Source of the DNA: Desulfocapsa sp.
Lineage (GTDB): Bacteria; Desulfobacterota; Desulfobulbia; Desulfobulbales; Desulfocapsaceae
Length of the DNA: 64,000 nt
NCBI GenBank assembly: GCA_013792135.1
Contig: VMSP01000069.1
Location: 1 to 64,000 of the forward strand
Direction: 5' to 3'
Below are positions 349 through 14,355 of the stretch, piece by piece. Numbering within the stretch: position 1 is the stretch's first letter; each line of letters begins with the position of its first letter. The translations under genes were made by a program, and so were the position numbers. Below the pieces are notes generated by a model that ran no database searches, had not been told where the DNA came from, and saw only the letters and a list, made by a program, of their open reading frames with translations.

Positions 349-642
349 TCAGCAGCCGCACACTGATGGTTTTTTCCCGGTAAACTTGGCAAGCCAACTG
401 TTGAGAATATAGCGTGCACAACCGCAACCATCATCGGGATTGACAAAAATGGCCTCGACAGGACAGTTCCTGGCACAAGCCCCGCATTCCATACAGGCAT
501 CATAGTCGACAATTGTCGCTTTTTTTTCAATACATTTGAAAACCCGATGCGGACAGACTATCTCACACATCCCACAACCGATACAGACCGCCTGATCGAG
601 TTTGAGAATTGCTGCACCATCTATGTACCTGAACTCTTTCAT
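349..642 (-). CDS. hgcB: HgcB, ferredoxin of mercury methylation
   Basis: HgcB is the 2x[4Fe-4S] ferredoxin thought to reduce the corrinoid of HgcA and to help move Hg(II)/methylmercury through its cysteines. The 97-residue protein carries two clusters. The first is around CIGCGMCEIVCP (residues about 21-32). The second is in the HgcB signature CMECGACARNCP (about 50-61). Further Cys follow at DGCGC, and the C-terminus is VCGC. The gene starts 10 nt after the hgcA stop and is clearly cotranscribed with it. From memory, HgcB proteins usually end in a vicinal Cys pair. Here the last codons are Cys-Gly-Cys followed by TGA, so a single stop codon sits where a second Cys might be expected. I take the TGA as the stop but note the coincidence because hgcA also has an odd TGA. 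Confidence 0.9.
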   Translation of the reverse strand: MKEFRYIDGAAILKLDQAVCIGCGMCEIVCPHRVFKCIEKKATIVDYDACMECGACARNCPVEAIFVNPDDGCGCARYILNSWLAKFTGKKPSVCGC

Positions 643-652
643 TGTTTATTTC

Positions 653-1843
653 TTAAAGAAAAAATGGCCCGGCAAGCCAGCAGAGCAGGCCAAGCAGGGC
701 GGAAACGATCTGTATTGCTAAGCCTTTGCGCATTTCCATTTCAACCCCGGAAAGAGAGGTATAGGGGGTAGAACCGGTGAAGTTCATGGCCAGAAAGGAG
801 CTGACACTCATTGCCCATAAGGCCATACCGATCACGGCAATCCAGCCGACAAAGGGCAAAAACCGCAGAACAGTAAAAACTGCGACCAGAATCCCTAATA
901 GCACACCTTTGAGCCAGAACTGCCTGCCCGGTATCCAAGGCAGCAGAAGTGGAACCAGAACCGCCCCGGCAAGGACGCTCATAATCGTCACGAGGGTGAT
1001 GCTTCCTCCTCTATGCAAGGCACGGTCCAGCGAATAGATATCCGGTCCGAAACCGGAGAACAGGACCAGGCAGACAAGAATGAGAGTAAGCGGTTTCAGG
1101 AGTAAAAAAATTTCCAAAGGGATCAAGACGGCGCGTTCCTTCAGGGTAAAGGTGACGCTGCGCATGGACTCGTCTGCTGTGTTACCGCCAGTCAGAAATG
1201 CCCTGATATCAGTTGCCCTGATCGGGCCGAAGGTACTTTTGAAACCACATGCAGTTTTCAGTTTCAGGGCAGAGACTCCAGGGGCGCTACATTGCGGAAG
1301 AATCAGTTCGCGGTGCTTGACCACTTCCACAAGTCTTGCCCGCTGGACCTGGTAAACAATTTCCTCAGTGGAAAATGTTCCTTTACCTGCGGCACACCAG
1401 ACGTTGATGCCTCTGGTGTCAACTACCAGCATCCAGACATTCATGCCCCCTAGTTCATTACGCAGGGTATCGAAAGTCAGTTTATAATTGGCGGTAACTA
1501 AAACGGGCGCATCACCGGTTGGCTTACCGACACAATACAGTCCTGGCGTTATGGTGTACTTATCACGCTGAATACCGAGTCGCACTCCGATCGTCCCAAT
1601 ATGATCAGCACGACTCAGAATGGTATCAATCTGCGGCACCCAACCTACCGGCGAGTCGACAAACCCGCAAACAAAAGGGTAGATGGCGTATCCCGCCAGT
1701 TCATGCTCCCCGGACCGGGGTTCCGTTTTGGGACCTCAGCAGACTCCGGCTTCTACTTCCGGCGGCGGGGCTAAAGATACAGAACAGGATGAAGGATTTT
1801 CCGATTTTGATAAACTGGCAAGAGGTTGCAAGGATTGTGTCAT
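653..1843 (-). CDS. hgcA: HgcA, corrinoid mercury methyltransferase with in-frame UGA (probable selenoprotein)
   Basis: HgcA transfers a methyl group from its corrinoid to Hg(II). The cap-helix motif NVWCAAGKG, with the lower-axial-ligand Cys (about residue 150 in this model), is present. So is the rest of the corrinoid domain (GLYCVGKP, VTANYKLTFDTLR). A C-terminal domain follows with about five hydrophobic segments and the conserved MNFTGSTPYTSLSG. Without readthrough the longest frame starts at a GTG at 1639, inside conserved sequence. Codons upstream of that GTG encode YPFVCGFVDSPVG, which clearly belongs to HgcA. No start codon separates this block from an in-frame TGA at 1736-1738. The same frame continues above the TGA as a Pro/Ser-rich tail ending EAGVC, back to an ATG at 1843. 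Read through, the protein is 396 residues with Cys35-Sec36-Gly-Pro. There is no good Shine-Dalgarno before 1843; a GTG at 1924 is an alternative. Identity as HgcA is near certain; selenocysteine is inference. Confidence 0.85.
1708..1720 (-). promoter_or_regulatory. SECIS-like hairpin after the hgcA UGA
   Basis: The mRNA reads CCCCG-GUC-CGGGG, a 5-bp G+C stem. If the last G-C pair is open it is a 4-bp stem with loop GGUCC. It starts 16 nt after the UGA at 1736-1738, so the loop begins about 20 nt after it. Bacterial SECIS elements recognised by SelB lie immediately 3' of the UGA and have a short stem with G among the first loop bases; the E. coli fdhF loop also contains GGUC. The lower stem is poor, and no selA, selB or selC is visible in this window. 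Confidence 0.5.
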
Positions 1844-1976: not shown

Positions 1977-2876
1977 TCATCCCGCAATCTTTGTCGCCAG
2001 AAACTCAACAAAAAGTTCACTATCATTTTGCACCTGACAAACCCGGTAATCGTGCAGACCGATGCTCCGGGCCAGCTCCTTATATTCAATGGCCAGCTCC
2101 AGATCAGTCTCGGAATTATCAATGGTAAACGAGAGGGGATAGACAATCACCTTCTCTCCCGACAGTCCCTTCAGCGTTGTCTCCAGTGATGGCTCCAGCC
2201 AGCGCATGGGTCCGACCTTGGACTGATAGGCCAGATGAACTCTTTTAAAGTCCAGTCCGGCGTCAGGCAATAGCGTTTTCAACAGGGCAACATGCGCCTC
2301 AATCTGCCCTTCATAGGGATCGTCGACGGCAATCTTCTGTGGCAGGCCATGGGCTGAAAAGATCAAATGAGCACTGCTGTCCAGATACTGTTCGCGAATA
2401 CGCTCCACTATTGAGGCATTAAACAGAGGATCATCATAATAAGGGCCGATTTCCCTGATCTCCGGCCGTTGCCCATAACTCTCAATCGCCCGATAGACAT
2501 CTTCAAGACTCGACTGAGTTGTGGTCGAGGAATAGTGTGGATAGAGTGGAACAAGCACCAATTGATCAAACTCTCTTTCTGCAAAGAGATCGGCAGCCAG
2601 AGGATGGGTATAACGCATGACCGGAAAAACCGCTTCCCCGGTTCGTTGTCGAAGCTTTTTCACCAACCTCTCAGTATGCTGATAAATCCTGCTACCGTTA
2701 ATCAACTCATACTTTCGCCATGTTTTTTTATAACGAAGAGTTGAAATAAGCGGAGCGAGGAGATAACGCACTGGCGAGCGAATAATATACTTATCACTGA
2801 ACATATTGAACAGAAAAGACCTGAGCTCCTGTTCTGACCGCGCTCCGCCCATGTTGAGCAACAAGACCCCTTTCAT
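1977..2876 (-). CDS. hemH: Ferrochelatase
   Basis: This protein inserts Fe(II) into a porphyrin as the last chelation step of haem synthesis. The 299-residue protein is a single ferrochelatase domain. It opens with the family start LLLNMGGARSEQELRSFL, has the catalytic-His segment LIFSAHGLPQK (about residues 172-182), the YQSKVGPMRWLEPS block, and the acidic metal-site segment FTIDNSETDLEL. AGGAAATGA gives a good ribosome site just before the ATG. Many sulfate reducers make haem b through the sirohaem (Ahb) route, so a classical HemH is a point of interest. Whether it accepts protoporphyrin or coproporphyrin cannot be told from sequence alone. It lies 133 nt upstream of hgcA on the same strand, so readthrough transcription into hgcAB is possible. 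Confidence 0.92.
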   Translation of the reverse strand: MKGVLLLNMGGARSEQELRSFLFNMFSDKYIIRSPVRYLLAPLISTLRYKKTWRKYELINGSRIYQHTERLVKKLRQRTGEAVFPVMRYTHPLAADLFAEREFDQLVLVPLYPHYSSTTTQSSLEDVYRAIESYGQRPEIREIGPYYDDPLFNASIVERIREQYLDSSAHLIFSAHGLPQKIAVDDPYEGQIEAHVALLKTLLPDAGLDFKRVHLAYQSKVGPMRWLEPSLETTLKGLSGEKVIVYPLSFTIDNSETDLELAIEYKELARSIGLHDYRVCQVQNDSELFVEFLATKIAG

Positions 2877-2906
2877 TTCCTTTCCCCTACCTTCTGCTCA
2901 GCAATT

Positions 2907-4400
2907 TCAGTTTATTATCGGGGCAGTACTGACACAGTTCCGTCCCTGATTCTTGGCTGTGTAAAGTGCCGCATCGGCACGACTGATGGTTTGTTCAAAC
3001 AATTCCACCCCATCATATTGGCTGATACCAATACTTACGGTCAGTGCAATGAATTTGCCATTTTCCTCGAAGCGTCTTTGTTCAATTGTCTCGCGCAGCT
3101 TTTCGGCAAGGCATTTTGCCTGATCAAGATCACAGTCATTCAGGACCACCAGAAATTCCTCGCCTCCCCAGCGCACGGCAATGTCCGACTGACGCAGCGA
3201 ATTCTGTAAGAGTTGAGCGATACCGCTCAAAGTGCGGTCTCCAACAAGATGCCCATGGATATCGTTGATGGCTTTAAAATGGTCTATATCTATAAATAAT
3301 ATGGACAACGGTCTGGGATTACGAAGATATTCAGCAAGGAGTTTTTTAATGAAGATGATGAAAACCTGCCGATTGAGCAGGCTAGTCAGCTTGTCGGTGG
3401 TGGCCATCTCCTCAATGCGGTTCTGGTAACGGTCAAGGGTCAGATGGGCCAACACTAATACCAGCAGCGTCATTGCCAGACTAACGGCGAGATTAATATA
3501 AAGTGTCCGGCGTATGCCAGCCAATGCCATGTCCTCATTCTGTTCAACAAACAAGAACCACTTGAGCTCAGGCAGATAGTTGACGTTTAAAATATAATTG
3601 TCACCATTCACTTCATACTGATAAAAACCACTCTTTTCGTGTAGAATACGTTCTACAAGGACCCCCAGCCCCGGCGCGGTATGCATGTCGATTTCCTCTT
3701 CGGTAGTACTGCCGAACAGAACCTTGTGTCCCTGGTCATTGACGAAGTAGATGACGCGCTGATAGCGCTGCTGGTAGTCTGCAATCAGGTGGCGTACGGC
3801 ATCCACGGTGAGGCCTATACCGGTTGCGCCGATATAGTTGCCTCCAAAATCGAAGACACGATAGTTGATAAAGATAGTCAACGTATCCTTGTTGGCCAGA
3901 TCGGGATCCACATTAATCTCGTAGGATTCCTTCATATTGCGCACCCGGTAGTACCAGGCATCACGTGGCTCCGTTGGTACCACATGTTTCATGATGCCTT
4001 TACCGGTATAATAAATCGCACTTTTTTCCGAGACGAAAAAGCTGCTGAATGCACCGTAGCGTTCTTTCACCTCGGCCAGGTAACGCGCCAATTCACCCAC
4101 ATCTTTTTCACCCTGCATAACCCATTCACGCAGAAAGGTGTCGTGGGCCATGGTGGAAGAAATCAGCACAGGGCGGACCAGATCCTTTTGGATCTCCGAA
4201 TAGATGTTACTCGAGGTAAGCGGAAGATTCTGACCAATAATTGCCGTGCGGATGGCCTGCTTGGAAACAAAGTAGCCGAACAGTGTGGTGGCAAAAAACC
4301 CGGCAATCAGCAACAGGCTCAAGAGGAAAAGAAGCCGGCGACGGTCAAAAATACGATAGGTTTTGGTCATGGCAGTGCTACGCAGGTAATTGACCCGCAT
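2907..4400 (-). CDS. Membrane diguanylate cyclase with Cache-type sensor
   Basis: The protein makes c-di-GMP from two GTP in response to an extracytoplasmic signal. The 497 residues are an N-terminal membrane helix (about 23-47), a periplasmic region of about 250 residues with dCache-like features (YYTGKG, DAWYYRVRN, FDFGGNYIGATGIGL), a second helix (about 302-324), and a GGDEF domain (about 335-490). The active loop is RWGGEEFLV and the inhibitory I-site RQSD lies five residues before it, so the enzyme should be active and product-inhibited. The ATG at 4370 (MTKTYRIFDRR) is an equally possible start. It stands alone, with no obvious operon partner. A PilZ target is encoded about 10 kb away (the MtnA-PilZ fusion), but no link is shown. 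Confidence 0.9.
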   Translation of the reverse strand: MRVNYLRSTAMTKTYRIFDRRRLLFLLSLLLIAGFFATTLFGYFVSKQAIRTAIIGQNLPLTSSNIYSEIQKDLVRPVLISSTMAHDTFLREWVMQGEKDVGELARYLAEVKERYGAFSSFFVSEKSAIYYTGKGIMKHVVPTEPRDAWYYRVRNMKESYEINVDPDLANKDTLTIFINYRVFDFGGNYIGATGIGLTVDAVRHLIADYQQRYQRVIYFVNDQGHKVLFGSTTEEEIDMHTAPGLGVLVERILHEKSGFYQYEVNGDNYILNVNYLPELKWFLFVEQNEDMALAGIRRTLYINLAVSLAMTLLVLVLAHLTLDRYQNRIEEMATTDKLTSLLNRQVFIIFIKKLLAEYLRNPRPLSILFIDIDHFKAINDIHGHLVGDRTLSGIAQLLQNSLRQSDIAVRWGGEEFLVVLNDCDLDQAKCLAEKLRETIEQRRFEENGKFIALTVSIGISQYDGVELFEQTISRADAALYTAKNQGRNCVSTAPIIN

Positions 4401-4514
4401 CCTATGCGCGTCATCAGGATTCGGGTCATTGTTAACCCAAGAATATACAAAGCCTCACTCCTGTTGTATTGGCCAGAGAGTAGACAGAAAGAAACACTGT
4501 CCGCTGCCTTTACC

Positions 4515-5330
4515 TCAACCCAGGGCCACATCGAGTACCATCATCACCGTGAATCCAGACATGGTGGCCATGGTGACCATGTCAATATGGGCCTCATTGA
4601 GTTGTGAGGTCGGAATTAATTCCTCCACCACCACAAAGATCATGGCCCCGGCGGCAAAACAGAGGGCATAGGGAAGAATGGTCTGCATCTGGAGGACAAA
4701 AAAAGCCCCCAAAACACCGGCCACAGGCTCGACCATCCCCGAAGCCTGGCCCATGAGAAAACTCTTCATCCGCCCCATCCCCTCTCTTCGCAGGGGCATG
4801 GAGACCGCTGCTCCTTCCGGAAAATTCTGAATTCCAATACCTATGGCCAAAGCAATCGCCGCACCAATAGTGGCTGAGGGAAGACCGGCAGCCACTGCTC
4901 CGAAGGCAACCCCCACAGCCAGCCCCTCCGGAATATTGTGGAGGGTGATAGCCAGGACCAGCAAGGTACTTCGTTGCCACGAAGTCTTGACTCCCTCGCT
5001 CTTATTCATCGCCAGCCCTGGATGAAGATGGGGAAGAAAGGTATCAGTCAGGCGCATGAAAATTCCGCCACCCATGAATCCGATCACGGCAGTCAGCCAG
5101 GGAACAAGTCCCATCTGCCCCGCCATCTCTATGCCTGGGGCCAGTAGCGACCAGAAGCTGGCCGCAATCATAACCCCGGCCGCAAATCCTAGCATTGCAT
5201 CCATGAACCGCTGATTAACGGTCCTGGTGAAAAAAACCAGTGCTGCACCGGCGGCGGTCACCCCCCAGGTAAAAAGGGTGGCCAGAAGCGCCTGCATAAC
5301 CGGATCAAATTGCTGTATAAAACTGATCAC
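4515..5330 (-). CDS. ZIP-family metal transporter
   Basis: This is an inner-membrane divalent-metal importer of the ZIP (GufA/ZupT-like) family, likely for Zn2+ or related ions. The 271 residues form about eight hydrophobic segments. The two metal-binding helices carry the hallmark [14 protein letters not shown] (about 133-146) and [11 protein letters not shown] His-containing loop ([11 protein letters not shown]) lies between helices 3 and 4, as expected for ZIP proteins. The ATG start and length match the family. The protein ends without an obvious terminator of its own. Substrate cannot be assigned from sequence. Confidence 0.88.
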
Positions 5331-5434
5331 CTTGATTCCCCGCCATTTAATTCTCTTACCATGCCACGGGTAATCTATCGATGACAGACAGCTACCGCAC
5401 CATATATTATTATTCTTACCAGATGCTGACCAAT

Positions 5435-5470
5435 AAAAAAAGGGGAGCCAGATGGCTCCCCTTTTTTTTA
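5435..5470 (-). terminator. Rho-independent terminator after glnN
   Basis: A GGGGAGCC stem with an AGAT loop and its complement GGCTCCCC is flanked by a T run on one strand and an A run on the other. It lies 23 nt past the glnN stop on the minus strand. It could also act bidirectionally. Confidence 0.85.
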
Positions 5471-5492
5471 TCCATAGAACGACAGCTAAGGT

Positions 5493-7634
5493 TTACAGAT
5501 TGAAAAGCAGATCGCTGTAGGTCGGCACCGGCCAGAGATCACTTGGCAGAATCGCCTCCAGGGCATCGACGTCAGCGCGCAGACTCACTGCCGCAGCCAT
5601 CACCTTGTCGCGATAGGCGGCAGCCTGCTTCTCCAGTTTATCATTGCTCTGAGCCTTCTTGGTCTCATCCTCAAGCTTTGCCACCTTTTTGCTGGCCGCC
5701 TCAAGATGCTTTGATACCTGCTCCAGCAGTTCCTTCTGCACCGTTCCCAACTTTCCGGCAACAGACAGAGAGGCTCCGAGCTCCGTCACGAAACGAATGG
5801 CAGCAGGGATATACAGGCGCCGCGTCATCTGAATCGCGGTCAACGCCTCGATATTGATATGCTTGGCATACTGCTCCACATAAATTTCATAACGAGAATC
5901 CAACTCATCCTTGGAAAGTACATTATACTTACCAAAGAGCTTGATCGCCTTAGGAGTCACAAAGGCCTTCAGGGCATCCACGGTATTCCGGACATTAGGA
6001 AGACCACGCTTCTCCGCCTCTTTGGCCCACTCTTCTGAGTAATTATTACCATTGAAGATGATCCGGCCATGCTTGGTCATGACTTCGGTCAGAATGGCCA
6101 AGATCTCTTTATTAACATCCTTGGCCTTTTCCAGACGAGTCGCGATTTCATCAAGGGCCTCGGCGGCGATTGTATTCAACGTCACATTGTGACCGGCAAT
6201 GGACTGGGCAGAACCGACCATGCGGAACTCAAACTTATTACCGGTAAAAGCAAAGGGCGAAGTCCGATTCCGGTCCGTATTATCCTTGGGCAGTTCCGGC
6301 AGGGAATCAACCCCTATTTTCAAGGTCTGACAGACGTCTGACTTGCAAATTTTCTCACCCTTGGCCAGTTTTTCCAGGACATCAGACAGCTCATGACCGA
6401 GAAAAACAGAGATGATCGCCGGCGGGGCTTCGTTGGCGCCCAGACGATGATCATTACCGGAGCTCCCGCAGGTGGCACGCATGATATCGGCATGGGTGTC
6501 CACCGCCTTGAGCAGGGCGGAGAGGAAGATCAGGAACTGGGCGTTATCCTCAGGGGTCTGGCCCGGGTCAAGCAGGTTGATACCGTCATCAGTGGAGAGC
6601 GACCAGTTGTTGTGCTTGCCGGAACCATTAACCCCGGCGTAAGGTTTCTCATGAAGCAGGCAGACCATGCCATGACGGATAGCCACCTTCTGCATGGTCT
6701 CCATGACCAGCTGGTTGTGGTCGGTGGCGATATTAGTGGTGGTGAAGACCGGGGCCATCTCAAACTGGGCCGGGGCCACCTCGTTGTGCTTGGTCTTGGA
6801 GGCGATGCCCATCTTCCACAGCTCAATATCCAGATCCTTCATATAGGCGGAGACCCGATCCTTGATGGCGCCGAAGTACTGGTCTTCCAGCTCCTGGCCC
6901 TTGGGAGCGGGAGCGCCAAAGAGAGTGCGGCCGCAGGTCATCAGGTCAAGGCGCTGCTGATAGTATTCCTTCTCGACCAGAAAATATTCCTGTTCGGCGC
7001 CGACGGTTGACATGACGCGTCTGGAGGTGGTGTTGCCCATGGCCTTGAGCACCCGCATCGCCTGCTTGGCCACGACATTCATTGACCGAAGCAGCGGAGT
7101 CTTCTTGTCCAGGGCCTCACCCTTGTAGGAACAGAAGGCGGTGGGGATACAGAGGGTCACATCACCGGCGGTATCCTCTTTCAGAAAGGCGGGGGAGGTG
7201 CAGTCCCAAGCGGTGTAGCCGCGGGCCTCAAAGGTCACGCGCAGGCCGCCGCTGGGGAAGGAGGAGGCATCCGGCTCGCCCTGGATCAGCTGCTTGCCGG
7301 AAAACTCCATGATCACACCACCGTCATCGGTGGGGGCAATAAAGGAATCGTGCTTCTCGGCGGTGATCCCGGTCAAGGGCTGGAACCAGTGAGTGTAATG
7401 GCTGGCACCTTTTTCAATGGCCCAATCCTTCATGGCATTGGCCACCACCGAGGCGACCTCGGGGGCAAGGGCAACGCCGGTAATGATGGTCTTGCGCAGG
7501 GCCTTGTAGGTATCCTTGGGCAGCCTCTCTTTCATGACCCTGTCATTAAAAACATTGGACCCGAATAACTCGGGCACGGGGATAGCATTCTGACCATAAC
7601 CGCTATCACAACAGCAATTTGGATTATCACACAT
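5493..7634 (-). CDS. glnN: Type III glutamine synthetase
   Basis: This ATP-dependent enzyme joins ammonia and glutamate to glutamine; the GSIII form is a dodecamer of about 80-kDa subunits. The 713 residues match the family length. Recognisable blocks are [10 protein letters not shown] near the N-terminus, [16 protein letters not shown], the catalytic [12 protein letters not shown], the [16 protein letters not shown] segment, [14 protein letters not shown] and the GNEx-type [23 protein letters not shown] at 6 nt fixes the ATG start, which makes the N-terminus Cys-rich ([11 protein letters not shown]). That is unusual for GSIII and might bind a metal or act as a redox latch (inference). Downstream of glnD/glnB/amtB on the same strand, it is the ammonium-assimilation enzyme of the block. 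A repeat-containing 376-nt leader separates it from glnD. Confidence 0.95.
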
Positions 7635-8010
7635 TCGTTGCTCCTCCTGATCTTTTTAAATCATGATTTTTAGAGGCGTCATGAAACAAGCAATGTCTTT
7701 TTCTTGCTTGCTTCATCTACGGCCTCTTATGCCGCGCCAAAGAAACAGCTAATCTTTTTAGGCTGTTTCTTTGCGTGGCGCCTGACGAATAACAACATAC
7801 AAGGAGCCGTTACAAAATAACCGGGGCATTTCCGACCATTTCATTACGGATCATTATGCCGTTTATTGCTATCACGATGACGGCAATATTTTTTATAACG
7901 GCTTGTACTTCATTACCCAACCATCACACAATGTGAATACGTTTATCTTTTTACCATTTTGACCACAAAAAGTAATCAAAAAATATTTTTTCTTACATAT
8001 ATGTAACATT
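7635..8010. repeat. Intergenic region with repeat copy A and a palindromic repeat
   Basis: Between glnD and glnN lies a 376-nt non-coding stretch. Bases 7718-7800 form a hairpin-rich unit (CTCTTATGCCGC, then inverted AAAGAAACAGC / GCTGTTTCTTT, then GTGGCGCCTG..AATAAC). The same unit recurs in inverted orientation at about 10745-10855. Bases 7807-7849 are an imperfect palindrome (CCGTTACAAAAT.../...ATTTCATTACGG) that also occurs at 25664-25705. The remainder (7850-8010) is AT-rich with no clear promoter. I did not find a sigma-54 site here. Confidence 0.6.
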
Positions 8011-10710
8011 TCACAATACGCGCTCTATTGCATAGAGCACACCCGCCCTGATCTCGGCCGCAAAAGACGCATCAGTAATCTTCTGCCCCTCGCTATCCAG
8101 TACATAAAAAATATCGATCAGCTGCTGCACCTCTGTAGCAATAAAGGCCCGATAGATGTTAATTCCAAAATCAGCCAGGGTCTGTGCAATATGGTACAAT
8201 TGCCCGGCCCTGTCCTCAGAATGCACCTCTATGACAGTATAACTGTCTGAAATCTCATTATCGATCTCAACTCGGGGCTTCTGCTGCCCCAGCAACATCG
8301 CCCCCGACAACTTACTCCGTTCATAAATGGAGGCCAGTTTCTGATAGATCCTGTGCTCTAGCCCCAAACGATGATTGAGGGCACGATCCAGGTCGTCATT
8401 AACCGCCTGCCAGTCTTTTTCAACAAAGCTCAGACCATCAAGGGAACGCAGCTCCAGTACATCCACCGCCAAGGCCATCCGCTCTTTCTCTACCCTTGAC
8501 GCAAGCAATTCTGGGCCTTCTTTGGCCGGCAAGGATTCACCACTCTCCCAGGTAAAGATCTTCGCGCTCAGCACCGAGAAATTATGAAGTGCCAGCACCC
8601 CACAGATCTTCGCCAGCAGGCCGGACCGGTCTCTGGCCATAATCAACAGTGACCAATGCTGATCGAGCTCCTGCGGCAAGATCAGGGCCTTTTTCCGCAA
8701 AACCTGATAATTCTGCCGATAAATCTGGATATGCTCAACAACTACCTCAGGACTAAAGCTCAAGAGATAGTCTGCGGGTAGATGGGCAACATCAGCGACA
8801 GCGAGGGATGAACCGACACTTTCAGTCACTGCCTGCGCCTCTTCATCACCGCCAAGCAGCGACACAACCTGCTCCCGCAGCCAGTCAACTCCCTGCTCTA
8901 CCTGCTGCTGCACAGTATCTGGATGTGCGACAGCAATCAGACCAGCTTCCAGATAGGGAGAGATTTTTAGAAACAATTCATGCAGCAGAGCAGCCTTCCA
9001 TTCACTCCATGCTGAAGGACCTGTCGCCTTGGAATCAGCAATAGAGAGGAGATAGAGCATGGCCAGCCGATCACTGTCACCAATGGTTTCGGCACAACGC
9101 CTGATAAAAACTTCATCATTCAAATCACGACGAAGGGCGTTTTCCGGCATAAACAGATGATAGCGTATCACAAAGGCCAGACAGGAACATTCTGCAGGAT
9201 CAAGACCAAGCCTCACCCCCACAGCCCCTACCATATCTGCCCCAATCAAGGAGTGATTGCCCCCTGCACCCTTGCCAATATCATGAAGCAGCGCTGCCAG
9301 ATAGAGGATATGCGGCGATGCCACCGAAAGATAAACAGTGGCATCATGTTCCACTATCAATCGCAGTTCGGCCACAGTCTGCAACAGATGCCGATCAACC
9401 GTGTAGATATGATAAATGTCATGCTGGGCCAGGGTACTGATCCGCGCAAATTCAGGAATGTAGGCCGTCAGCAGCCCAGTCTCCAGCATCACCTCCAAAA
9501 CAGGGAGCGGATCAGCGGGGTGCAGCAAAAGTTCAAAAAAAGGCCTGGACATACGCGGCGACACCCGCATCTTGTCATCGATGAGATCAAGATTGGCGCT
9601 GACAATTTTGCGTGTTCGATGATGAACAGAAGCTCCCGTTCTCACCGATGCCAGGAAAAGACGCATAAGCAAATACGGCCTGGATGCCAGCTCTTTGGCG
9701 GAAACAACCAGATGAAGGCGATCGTTACGCAGCTCAATCCCCTTTTCTAGGATCCGGTCACTGTTTGGCCTTTCTCCTTTTACAGCAAGACCAAGGACCT
9801 CATCCACGTGCTCAAAAAAGAGATCCGTGATTACCGCAATAGTCTGAAGATGACCATGCATCTCCCGCATAAACCTCTCTACGCCCAGCTTACCCGTTCC
9901 TGTTTTATACCCGAATGCCTGGGCCAGCTCCTCCTGATGTTCGAAATAGAGCTGATCATTCTTGCGCCCACTGATATAATGCAGGCGATTTCTGATCTTC
10001 ACCAACTCGTCCCAGGAAGTCGCAAAGGCTTCGCGCTCTTCCTCCAGAAGAACAGCCGCCTCAACAATGTCCTGAAGGCTGTCCAGACCAAAAACAACCT
10101 TTGCCGTCCAGAGCATGGCCTGGATATCACGCATTCCTCCTTTCCCCTCCTTGATGTGAGGTTCAAGCAGATAACTGTGACTGCCAAAGCGCTTCCTGCG
10201 TGCCGCGCGGAAGGCCTTCATACTGCGTACAAATTCCTCCCGGCCACCGTCAATAAAACGCAACCGATACTGGGCCAGCAATCCATTAAACAATTCCTGC
10301 GACCCCACAAGAAACCTGGCATCAAGCATGGCGACCTGGAAGAAAAAATCCTGGCCGGCATGCTCCATGGACTCCTCAACAGTGCGCACTCCATGCCCGA
10401 CCTCAAGCCCTGCGTCCCAGAGCGGGTAGAGAATAGCCTCTACCACCTGTTTGATCTCTGCCTTTTGCTCCGGCTGATAAAGGATCATAAGATCAATATC
10501 AGAATAAGGAAAAAGCTCCTGACGGCCATAGCCACCGAGAGCCACCAAGGCAATCGAGCCAGTCAACTCACTGGCCCCGGCCTGAAAATGCTGACAGATA
10601 AAGACATCAACCAGTCGGCTCTGCTCAGCAAGCAGGGCCTGACCACTCAAACCCTGCTGCCACAGTTTTTCCAAGGCGACGCGTTGGGCACGAAGATGTG
10701 TTGACTTCAT
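8011..10710 (-). CDS. glnD: GlnD, PII uridylyltransferase / uridylyl-removing enzyme
   Basis: GlnD senses glutamine and adds or removes UMP on PII (GlnB). The 899 residues give the standard four-part layout. The nucleotidyltransferase domain has GGYGRQELFPYSDIDLMIL (about 59-77, with catalytic Asp71 and Asp73). The central helical and HD domain has LLHDIGKGAGGNHSLIGA (about 470-490). Two C-terminal ACT domains follow (about 690-770, LLIMARDRSGLLAKICGVL, and about 820-895, IEVHSEDRAGQLYHIAQTL). Start is the ATG at 10710. It sits between glnB and glnN, 189 nt after glnB, separated by repeat copy B. Both catalytic centres look intact. Confidence 0.95.
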   Translation of the reverse strand: MKSTHLRAQRVALEKLWQQGLSGQALLAEQSRLVDVFICQHFQAGASELTGSIALVALGGYGRQELFPYSDIDLMILYQPEQKAEIKQVVEAILYPLWDAGLEVGHGVRTVEESMEHAGQDFFFQVAMLDARFLVGSQELFNGLLAQYRLRFIDGGREEFVRSMKAFRAARRKRFGSHSYLLEPHIKEGKGGMRDIQAMLWTAKVVFGLDSLQDIVEAAVLLEEEREAFATSWDELVKIRNRLHYISGRKNDQLYFEHQEELAQAFGYKTGTGKLGVERFMREMHGHLQTIAVITDLFFEHVDEVLGLAVKGERPNSDRILEKGIELRNDRLHLVVSAKELASRPYLLMRLFLASVRTGASVHHRTRKIVSANLDLIDDKMRVSPRMSRPFFELLLHPADPLPVLEVMLETGLLTAYIPEFARISTLAQHDIYHIYTVDRHLLQTVAELRLIVEHDATVYLSVASPHILYLAALLHDIGKGAGGNHSLIGADMVGAVGVRLGLDPAECSCLAFVIRYHLFMPENALRRDLNDEVFIRRCAETIGDSDRLAMLYLLSIADSKATGPSAWSEWKAALLHELFLKISPYLEAGLIAVAHPDTVQQQVEQGVDWLREQVVSLLGGDEEAQAVTESVGSSLAVADVAHLPADYLLSFSPEVVVEHIQIYRQNYQVLRKKALILPQELDQHWSLLIMARDRSGLLAKICGVLALHNFSVLSAKIFTWESGESLPAKEGPELLASRVEKERMALAVDVLELRSLDGLSFVEKDWQAVNDDLDRALNHRLGLEHRIYQKLASIYERSKLSGAMLLGQQKPRVEIDNEISDSYTVIEVHSEDRAGQLYHIAQTLADFGINIYRAFIATEVQQLIDIFYVLDSEGQKITDASFAAEIRAGVLYAIERVL

Positions 10711-11393: not shown

Positions 11394-12608
11394 TTACAGG
11401 TTATAACCAACCTCACTGTGCTGGGTTAGATCCAGTCCTTGAGTCTCGTCATCAGAGCTTACCCGAAGACCAATGATTACGTCTATGACTTTCAAGAGAA
11501 TAAAGGTCACAACAACCGAGTACGCTATGGTTGAACCAACGCCAATGGCCTGAACCACCAACTGATGCGGATTCCCGTTAAGAAGTCCATTGCCAGCCGG
11601 ATTCACAACAGATGACGCAAAGATACCGGTCGCCAAGGCGCCCCAGATCCCACCGACACCATGCACTCCAACCACGTCCAGAGAATCATCGTAACCAAGT
11701 TTGCTTTTGGCAAGTACAGCAAGATAACAGAGCACACCAGCCACACCACCCATAATGATCGCAGAGACAGGACTGACAAAACCTGCTCCCGGAGTAATTG
11801 CCACCAGCCCAGCCAGGGCGCCGGATGCGGCTCCCAAAGTGGTCGGTTTCCCCTGTACCTTCCATTCGGCAATGACCCAAGCAAGGGCACCTGCACCTGT
11901 TGCCACCTGCGTTGTAAAAAGGGCAAGAACCGCAATAGGACTTGCGCCAAGCGCACTCCCAGCATTAAATCCAAACCAGCCAAACCAGAGCAGGCCAGCA
12001 CCTAGAACGGTCATTGGCAGGTTATGGGGATGCATGGAGTCACGACCATATCCTTTTCGCTTACCAAGAACCAGGGCTGCCACCAGGGCCGCAGCACCAG
12101 AATTAATATGAATAACCGTACCGCCTGCAAAATCTAGAGCGCCCATCTTAAAGAGCCATCCTTCTTGTCCCCACACCCAATGACAAACGGGAAGGTAAAC
12201 CAGGGTTGACCACAAGATCGTAAAAGCCAGAAAAGCGGTAAATTTCATCCGTTCGGCAAAGGCCCCGGTAATCAGCGCCGGAGTAATAATGGCAAACATG
12301 AGCTGAAAGGCACAAAACAACAAGGACGGGATAGTGGCGGAATAAGGCCCTGGCTCAAGCCCTACACCTTTCAAAAATGCATGATCAAGATTACCGATAA
12401 AATGACCGACATCCGGACCAAAGGCCAGAGAATAACCATAAACAACCCAGAGCATAGAGATTAGCCCCAGACAGACAAAACTCTGCATAGTTGTTGCCAG
12501 CACATTTTTACTGCGAACCAGACCACCGTAAAACAGGGCCAGCCCCGGCGTCATCAACATCACCATTGCCGTGGCAATGAGCATAAAAGCAGTATCTCCA
12601 GTATTCAT
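11394..12608 (-). CDS. amtB: Ammonium transporter Amt (copy 1)
   Basis: Inner-membrane ammonium channel/transporter of the Amt/Mep/Rh family, a trimer with about eleven membrane helices. Visible hallmarks are MTPGLALFYGGLVRSKN near the N-terminus, CHWVWGQEGWL, the pore His segment GGTVIHINSGAAALVAA and the second pore His in GVHGVGGIWGALATG. The C-terminal cytoplasmic tail ends GLDLTQHSEVGYNL, as is common for PII-regulated Amt. AAGGAGGA five bases before the ATG at 12608 selects this start (404 residues); the adjacent ATG at 12611 is possible. It lies between amtB2 and glnB. It differs clearly from copy 2 but shares the same overall fold, so this is a duplicated or doubly acquired transporter. 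Confidence 0.95.
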   Translation of the reverse strand: MNTGDTAFMLIATAMVMLMTPGLALFYGGLVRSKNVLATTMQSFVCLGLISMLWVVYGYSLAFGPDVGHFIGNLDHAFLKGVGLEPGPYSATIPSLLFCAFQLMFAIITPALITGAFAERMKFTAFLAFTILWSTLVYLPVCHWVWGQEGWLFKMGALDFAGGTVIHINSGAAALVAALVLGKRKGYGRDSMHPHNLPMTVLGAGLLWFGWFGFNAGSALGASPIAVLALFTTQVATGAGALAWVIAEWKVQGKPTTLGAASGALAGLVAITPGAGFVSPVSAIIMGGVAGVLCYLAVLAKSKLGYDDSLDVVGVHGVGGIWGALATGIFASSVVNPAGNGLLNGNPHQLVVQAIGVGSTIAYSVVVTFILLKVIDVIIGLRVSSDDETQGLDLTQHSEVGYNL

Positions 12609-12707
12609 CATCTCCTCCTTGTTAACATATTTATTAATGCGGCTCTTAATGATTCTCAACTAAAGCGCCCACAACAACCGTAGCTGAGATTTATTAAAAT
12701 CCTTTTT

Positions 12708-13931
12708 TTATTGATGATTATAAGCCGTTTCCGAATGTTCCACTGAATCAAGACCCGTAACTTCATCCTCTTCTGTCAATCTGAGCCCCATGACTGAATC
12801 AATAACCTTCAAAAGAATCCAGCTGACCACCAGAGTATAGCCTCCAACAACCAAAACACCTATTGCCTGCTTTACCAGTTGAGCAGAATTTCCAGCCAGC
12901 AAACCGTCAACTCCAGCAGGATTTACCTGAGTGGAAGCAAAAATCCCCAGACAGAGTGTGCCAACTATTCCCCCAACCCCATGAATTCCAACTACATCAA
13001 GCGAATCATCAAACTTGAGTCGGCTTTTTAAACGTACAGCAAGAAAACAGATAACCCCAGCAAGAAAACCAATGACTATGGCCGCATTAGGACCAACAAA
13101 ACCGGCTGCAGGAGTGATCGTAGCAAGCCCGGCTATGGCTCCGGATGCTGCACCCAAGGTAGTGGCATTGCCCATGACAAATCGCTCCATAAGCACCCAC
13201 ATGAACATGCCGGCCATGCCGGCAAGATGAGTAGACACAAAGGCGGTGGCCGCAACCTCATTGGCAGCAAGGGCCGACCCACCATTAAAGCCAAACCAGC
13301 CGAACCACAGCAGACCTGTACCCATCAAGGTCATTGGCAGATTGTGAGGCATAAAACTTGTCCGACCATATCCGCGTCTTGGTCCCACGACAAGAACTGC
13401 CGCTAAAGCTGCTGCCCCACAAGTTACATGGACAACCAGGCCACCGGCAAAATCAAGCACACCCATCTGCGCCAACCAACCCCCCTTGGCCCAGACCCAG
13501 TGACAGACAGGATTATAAACTAATATTGTCCACAACAGAGCAAAGACCAGAAAAGGCACAAAGCGTACCCGCTCAGCAAAGGCGCCGGTTATAAGGGCCG
13601 GGGTAATAATGGCAAACATGCACTGATAAATCATAAAAACAGTCTGGGGGATAGTGGTCGCGTAATCAGGGCTGGGTGCATTCCCCACCCCATTTAAGGC
13701 AAACCATGACAAATCTCCTATTACCCCCGCAACATCAGGACCAAAAGACATTGAATAGCCCAGATAGACCCATTCAATGGATATAAGGGCAATCATGAAA
13801 AAACTCTGCATGATCGTCCCCAAAACATTCTTTCCACGCACCATCCCACCGTAAAAAAGGGCAAGTCCGGGTGTCATCAATAACACCAGACCTGCCGACG
13901 CCAGGATAAATGCTGTATCCGCCTTGTCCAC
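12708..13931 (-). CDS. amtB: Ammonium transporter Amt (copy 2)
   Basis: Second Amt-family ammonium transporter, 407 residues with about eleven helices. Motifs are MTPGLALFYGGMVRGKN, CHWVWAKGGWL, GLVVHVTCGAAALAAV (first pore His) and GIHGVGGIVGTLC (second pore His), with tail GLDSVEHSETAYN. I place the start at a GTG (VDKADTAF...) at 13931 because AAGGAGGGAGAAG precedes it directly; longer frames upstream lack a ribosome site. It is the first gene of the minus-strand nitrogen block and is followed after about 100 nt by amtB copy 1. The two tails end in the same motif type, consistent with both being gated by the GlnB encoded downstream. Confidence 0.94.
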   Translation of the reverse strand: MDKADTAFILASAGLVLLMTPGLALFYGGMVRGKNVLGTIMQSFFMIALISIEWVYLGYSMSFGPDVAGVIGDLSWFALNGVGNAPSPDYATTIPQTVFMIYQCMFAIITPALITGAFAERVRFVPFLVFALLWTILVYNPVCHWVWAKGGWLAQMGVLDFAGGLVVHVTCGAAALAAVLVVGPRRGYGRTSFMPHNLPMTLMGTGLLWFGWFGFNGGSALAANEVAATAFVSTHLAGMAGMFMWVLMERFVMGNATTLGAASGAIAGLATITPAAGFVGPNAAIVIGFLAGVICFLAVRLKSRLKFDDSLDVVGIHGVGGIVGTLCLGIFASTQVNPAGVDGLLAGNSAQLVKQAIGVLVVGGYTLVVSWILLKVIDSVMGLRLTEEDEVTGLDSVEHSETAYNHQ

Positions 13932-14355
13932 CTTCTCCCTCCTTGATAATGTGAGTAAAATGCACGGGATCTCCAATCCCGTACACTATCAGACCAGACG
14001 CTGCTCTTTGCTCCATGGAGGAACTACATAAACAGCACAAAAAATTATTTTACCATCCCATCTATATACAAATAGTATGCCATACCCATAATAGGCGCAT
14101 AACTACAAAAAATAATTCAATATTTTTTGAATAAAAACCAATCTTCACAGGAAATAATTTTACATTTTTGTGAAAATAAATGAAAAAGATACCAATTTTG
14201 TCAATTCGAATCAATATATGACAAATTAATCCAATCTTTTTCACTAATGAAATTATTTTACATTTTATCACAGGGTGAGTATTCTTAAAAAAAAGAAAAG
14301 ATCCTTACTGTCATTTTTACCGTTATCCCTTCTAAGAAAAGAGAACATTTCTGCC
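13932..14355. other. AT-rich divergent intergenic region
   Basis: This stretch separates the divergent amtB2 and the mtnA-PilZ gene. It is strongly AT-rich from about 14040 to 14260. It holds a sigma-54-like site for amtB2. The first part of the frame upstream of the mtnA ATG (14275-14355) is open but lysine-rich and unlike MtnA. No RNA gene was recognised. Confidence 0.5.
14067..14082 (-). promoter_or_regulatory. Possible sigma-54 promoter before amtB2
   Basis: TGGCATACTATTTGTA resembles TGGCACG-N4-TTGCW with correct spacing, but the -12 element has GT instead of GC. It lies about 135 nt upstream of the amtB2 start in an AT-rich leader. The weaker match makes this a tentative call. Confidence 0.35.

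Follow-up and report, generated by a model that had tools for sequence, protein, structure and literature searches.

A mercury-methylation gene pair hgcAB from Desulfocapsa with an in-frame UGA, very probably encoding a selenoprotein HgcA

The window, i.e., the whole analysed stretch of 64,000 nucleotides from Desulfocapsa sp., begins at base 1 of its contig (C129) and carries close to this end two neighbouring genes resembling hgcA and hgcB, the first of which is interrupted by an in-frame UGA codon. This locus raises the question of whether the two genes constitute a genuine mercury-methylation pair, and whether the UGA ends a protein or is read as selenocysteine (Sec). Passages of PMC11588087 describe Cys93 as the lower ligand of the HgcA cobalamin, SAM as methyl donor in vitro, HgcB as the supplier of electrons, and HgcB residues Cys73, Cys94 and Cys95 as relevant, and mention possible selenoproteins among the homologues of hgcA and hgcB. 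A 2026 review (PMC13188914) includes HgcA (motif CU) and HgcB (motif GVGU) among the selenoproteins, with reference to Zhang & Gladyshev 2008 and Haft & Gwadz 2023; Sec-containing HgcA was therefore already known. Terms for CODH gave no match in PMC2398784, the work cited by this review for HgcA. With the integration of the findings described below, we hold with high confidence that the window encodes a complete hgcAB pair with a selenoprotein HgcA, in which Sec would be inserted at UGA codon 36 by means of a hairpin.

The hgcAB pair and the cysteine sites of HgcB

Both genes lie on the minus strand and are separated by 10 bases, in agreement with the adjacency claimed in a preliminary description of this DNA. 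Full-length hgcA (653-1843, minus), which includes the internal UGA, comprises 396 residues and a TAA stop, and the downstream gene hgcB (349-642, minus) encodes a ferredoxin of 97 aa with two [4Fe-4S] clusters. The two motifs on which the same description relied were located as well, namely NVWCAAGKG in HgcA (1379-1405, minus), which agrees with the cap-helix pattern N(V/I)WCA(A/G)GK, and CMECGACARNCP at the second cluster in the ORF translation of HgcB (460-495, minus). The former includes Cys150, which corresponds to Cys93, the cobalt ligand in ND132, and Cys150 was invariant in the 45 aligned UGA-type HgcA sequences (45/45). When compared with the curated NCBIfam models, as had been proposed, both proteins scored over the cut-offs: HgcA reached 422.6 bits against NF040863 (cut-off 275), and HgcB reached 102 bits against NF040864 (cut-off 99), a narrow margin obtained with an alignment that leaves out profile positions 85-93. 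The window thus contains a genuine hgcAB pair, and its gene content suggests that the Desulfocapsa source organism may form methylmercury.

The pair shares the cap-helix Cys, the two [4Fe-4S] motifs and the membrane domain with HgcAB of Pseudodesulfovibrio mercurii ND132, but the cysteine sites of HgcB were found to be altered. The essential Cys73 site is present as Gly-Cys-Gly-Cys (residues 72-75; 418-429, minus) in place of the usual Gly-Val-Gly-Cys, and the usual terminal Cys-Cys is replaced by Cys-Gly-Cys (residues 95-97; 352-360, minus), whereas HgcB of ND132 ends in Cys94-Cys95, as given in passages of PMC11588087. Regarding the Sec-containing proteins named in PMC13188914, the HgcA with motif CU belongs to the same family (NF040863) and likewise has a Cys-Sec pair, and no difference from the HgcA studied here was established; the HgcB with motif GVGU also belongs to the same family (NF040864) and has Sec within the same two-gene system, but in the window Sec would be in HgcA, and HgcB has a Cys at that site with one more Cys before it (GCGC). 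The Cys-Gly-Cys form of HgcB had no mention in the results of the literature searches, which were directed at other terms, and we make no claim that it is unpublished.

As hgcB ends in CGC-TGA, Sec at this terminal TGA (349-351, minus) was also considered and rejected: of 31 relatives whose HgcB ends in this way, 5 have TAA or TAG as the stop, and the downstream frames were mostly unrelated, which indicates that this TGA is the real stop of the gene. In another HgcB (L181; ...APPD-TGA-SDGCGDGPSSPSSCC), a possible Sec lies near the C-terminus at a site unlike GVGU, with sequencing error as the alternative.

The in-frame UGA, the downstream hairpin and the Sec machinery

The preliminary description placed the end of the gene span at 1843, which is the true ATG, but the frame 1843-653 is not open, and its in-frame TGA at codon 36 (1736-1738, minus; ...GVC-TGA-GPKTEPRSG...) went unmentioned; its hgcAB interpretation is supported but incomplete, since both this recoded codon and the altered HgcB cysteines were overlooked. 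Owing to the UGA, an ordinary gene call retains only the last 328 residues of hgcA, starting from GTG at codon 69 (1637-1639, minus), the first start codon past the UGA and 33 codons away from it. Homology extends to either side of the UGA, and Cys occupies the aligned site in relatives, so that codon 36 is almost certainly read as Sec, to judge from these comparisons, giving Cys35-Sec36-Gly-Pro. ATG 1843 is preceded by a weak Shine-Dalgarno sequence, and the codon-position bias just 5' of the UGA is slight (5, 2 and 5 variable of 12). Further frames interrupted by TGA were also listed in the window.

For the survey of this site, hgcA loci were collected from 18 named public contigs, a family search (match in 60 of 93 genomes) and a phylum search (match in 125 of 395 genomes, over the cut-off in 113), and 110 further regions were fetched. 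Removal of exact duplicates around the cap-helix motif, with the exclusion of 3 motif-less loci, left 172 distinct hgcA records. Most open frames from the family search measured ~356-362 aa, which implies that family members stop at about the same site, and their DNA displayed the same codon there, TGA. The aligned site was occupied by UGA in 94 of the 172 distinct loci, a fraction that does not represent a natural frequency, as sampling was heavy in the window's own family; an in-frame start upstream, with no intervening stop, was present in 94/94. Cultured relatives with a UGA-type hgcA include Desulfobulbus sp. Tol-SR and Desulfopila sp. IMCC35008. The UGA was preceded by Cys in 85 of them and by Gly, Thr or Leu in the other 9; within the alignment group of the window, both the preceding Cys and the following Gly and Pro were found in 55/55. 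By comparison, TAA or TAG occurred only once at the aligned UGA positions (L162), in a locus with other stops close upstream where no N-terminal Cys or Sec was found. Relatives with Cys-Cys at the aligned site (CCGG or CCGP) have frames open through it. Classification by short patterns, whose counts are approximate, assigned the 166 HgcA tree rows to Sec (91), Cys-Cys (47), Cys-x-Cys-like (6), single Cys (7) and no Cys (15) types; given these last two types, the Cys/Sec pair is not needed in every HgcA.

The nine UGA genes without a preceding Cys correspond to loci L107, L109, L114, L121, L152, L168, L154, L093 and L134. A Cys follows the UGA in four of them (L109, L114, L121 and L152), whose HgcA would display the order Sec-Cys instead of Cys-Sec.

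A SECIS-like hairpin, CCCCGGUCCGGGG (1708-1720, minus), was identified, whose stem begins 18 nt downstream of the initial base of the UGA. Folding of nine-codon windows was compared with that of synonymous shuffles in the 94 UGA genes and in 34 Cys-Cys genes, these being the genes whose pair falls in a narrow window. For codons 4-12 after the UGA, the mean energy z was -1.97 (n=94) vs +0.52 in the Cys-Cys genes (n=34), with -0.74 in the overlapping window of codons 1-9 and values from -0.47 to +0.36 from codons 7-15 onward. Furthermore, stems of at least 5 pairs (84/94 vs 11/34) and a GG within the loop (70/94 vs 5/34) were more frequent in the UGA genes, and in 85 of the 94 the distance from the first UGA base to the start of the loop was 20-23 nt. 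RNAalifold found no common structure (energy 0) among 52 distinct family sequences, whose stems lie, by eye, in different registers owing to unequal loop lengths; the per-sequence folding and stem tests took the place of this consensus fold and agree with a bacterial SECIS element. In a 34-sequence group, the common-fold computation did find a structure, and none of 200 column shuffles was as low.

The genome of the source organism contains selA (619.9 bits, contig C87), selB (392.6 bits, contig C151) and two tRNA-Sec(UCA) genes called by ARAGORN, i.e., the SelA, SelB and tRNA-Sec components together. Among the surveyed genomes, selA was found in 76 of 80 with UGA-type hgcA and in 70 of 78 with other types, which makes this gene a poor discriminator; the 4 UGA-type genomes in which selA had no match contained selB (4/4) and, in three cases, tRNA-Sec (3/4). 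None of the three genomes without selA, selB and tRNA-Sec (G468, G375 and G380) was UGA-type, G380 being judged by open-frame length. In the source genome, four tRNA-Sec-like matches exceeded the Rfam gathering score (L066, L067, L068 and L069, on contigs C71, C158, C62 and C114), including the two called by ARAGORN; the other two contain an anticodon-like loop with UCA and are located immediately beyond long frames, which we take to resemble HdrA-type FAD proteins.

Structure, competing explanations and proposed mechanism

The AlphaFold2 model of HgcA, with 45 UGA-type sequences as input, had a mean pLDDT of 87.2. It contains five predicted helices at residues 241-262, 272-303, 309-332, 334-354 and 364-395, consistent with the complete membrane domain (residues 241-395; 659-1123, minus) attributed to this protein in the preliminary description. 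The best fold match was the HgcAB entry 9a0b (54% identity over 325 columns), which by its title is a computed model and not an experimental structure, followed by CFeSP structures. The N-terminal tail was modelled with low confidence (pLDDT ~37-64; block means of 64, 54 and 63 for residues 21-50), and the Cys-Sec segment within it would fit a mobile metal-binding tail.

Were the UGA a real stop, HgcA would begin at GTG 1639, and the 35 upstream codons would be a remnant or noncoding. By itself, the 328-aa ORF attains 423.4 bits, with an alignment to NF040863 from the first position onward; however, we regard this explanation as very improbable, since UGA, rather than TAA or TAG, recurs at one aligned site and is mostly preceded by Cys, the residues past it are conserved, the frames of Cys-Cys relatives continue across the site, the hairpin signal is restricted to UGA genes, and a start at residue 69 would remove the strand predicted at residues 58-64 of the AlphaFold2 model. 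Even less credible is a regulatory arrangement in which the 35-codon frame would specify a leader peptide, the hairpin would act as an attenuator and translation would re-initiate at GTG 1639: the hairpin does lie directly after the UGA, but there is no terminator-like site at 1708-1720 on the minus strand, and the protein homology runs through the UGA into the Cys-Cys relatives.

The explanation to which we give the least credence is that of an HgcA-like paralogue, i.e., a CODH/ACS corrinoid protein or an HgcAB-like fusion, an outcome that the preliminary description had named as the one that would overturn its assignment. The protein has a weak similarity to CdhD (PF03599, 47.3 bits), it matched solved CFeSP structures (E 1.8e-12), and it shares a homologous corrinoid-binding domain of ~140 residues with the large subunit of the CODH/ACS corrinoid iron-sulphur protein (CdhE/AcsC). 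CdhE/AcsC is not known to have a membrane domain or an HgcB partner. Against its score far over the HgcA cut-off, the protein of the window remained under those of the CODH/ACS gamma model PRK04165 (71.4 bits, cut-off 306) and of the HgcAB-like fusion model (193.8 bits, cut-off 285), and CFeSP/CdhD paralogy was rejected on these scores; the five membrane helices, the adjoining hgcB and the top fold match with 9a0b also speak against it. A separate CFeSP-like homologue with 32% identity is found elsewhere in the same genome (contig C96).

Under the selenoprotein reading, translation would start at ATG 1843, and the SECIS-like hairpin would allow SelB and tRNA-Sec to insert Sec at UGA codon 36, yielding a product in which an N-terminal Cys35-Sec36-Gly-Pro precedes the corrinoid domain and the five-helix membrane anchor. 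Homology suggests that the cobalamin of HgcA, with Cys150 as its ligand, would carry the methyl group, that the ferredoxin HgcB would reduce this cobalamin, and that Hg(II) would accept the methyl group. For the flexible Cys-Sec pair, the most probable function would be the binding of Hg(II) and its delivery to either the cobalamin or HgcB, in concert with the Cys-Gly-Cys sites of the latter.

If this is true, methylmercury formation in this lineage would require a supply of selenium, a possible link between two element cycles. The antagonism between selenium and mercury is well known, and a possible selenium dependence of methylation bears on it. Conventional calls drop the first 68 residues of HgcA, including the Cys-Sec motif, and NF040863 itself begins at residue 69; consequently, derived models and expression constructs would be devoid of a possible mercury-binding site.

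Distribution of Sec within the HgcA tree and genomic surroundings

A FastTree phylogeny was obtained with 166 HgcA rows (6 of the 172 records were dropped). The Sec label changed 15 times on this tree, with at least 6 changes forced by well-supported branches, and this repeated gain or loss offers a comparative way to test what the N-terminal pair does. The HgcA of the window belongs to an all-Sec clade of 53 rows (99% support) and, within it, to a nested clade of 44 rows (99% support) whose named members are mostly Desulfobulbaceae and Desulfocapsaceae MAGs. In this nested clade, HgcB has GCGC and not GVGC in all 40 rows read, of which, by the same approximate classification, 31 end in Cys-x-Cys, 5 in Cys-Cys and 4 otherwise. 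As GCGC is confined to one clade, a functional tie between Sec-containing HgcA and GCGC-type HgcB is inseparable from descent. One speculative proposal, which we consider rather unlikely, is that one Desulfobulbales-type lineage rebuilt the mercury-handling residues in both subunits, with Cys-Sec at the HgcA N-terminus and, at the two Hg-binding sites of HgcB, Cys-Gly-Cys replacing Val-Gly-Cys and Cys-Cys; such a change might provide a distinct Hg(II) relay based on a selenolate and chelating Cys-x-Cys, an altered affinity for mercury, and methylation that requires selenium. Elsewhere, the location of Sec shifts between subunits: L205 combines a Cys-Cys HgcA with an HgcB reading GVG-TGA-AALVV, i.e., with Sec at the Cys73 site.

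Upstream of hgcA, also on the minus strand, the genes were named as hemH (1977-2876), a GGDEF protein (2907-4400), a ZupT-like transporter (4515-5330), a glutamine-synthetase-like protein (5493-7634) and glnD (8011-10710), and no name among these neighbours (1977-10710) points to mercury. Near glnD and the glutamine-synthetase-like gene, two ammonium transporter genes are arranged in tandem on the minus strand (11394-12659 and 12708-13976).
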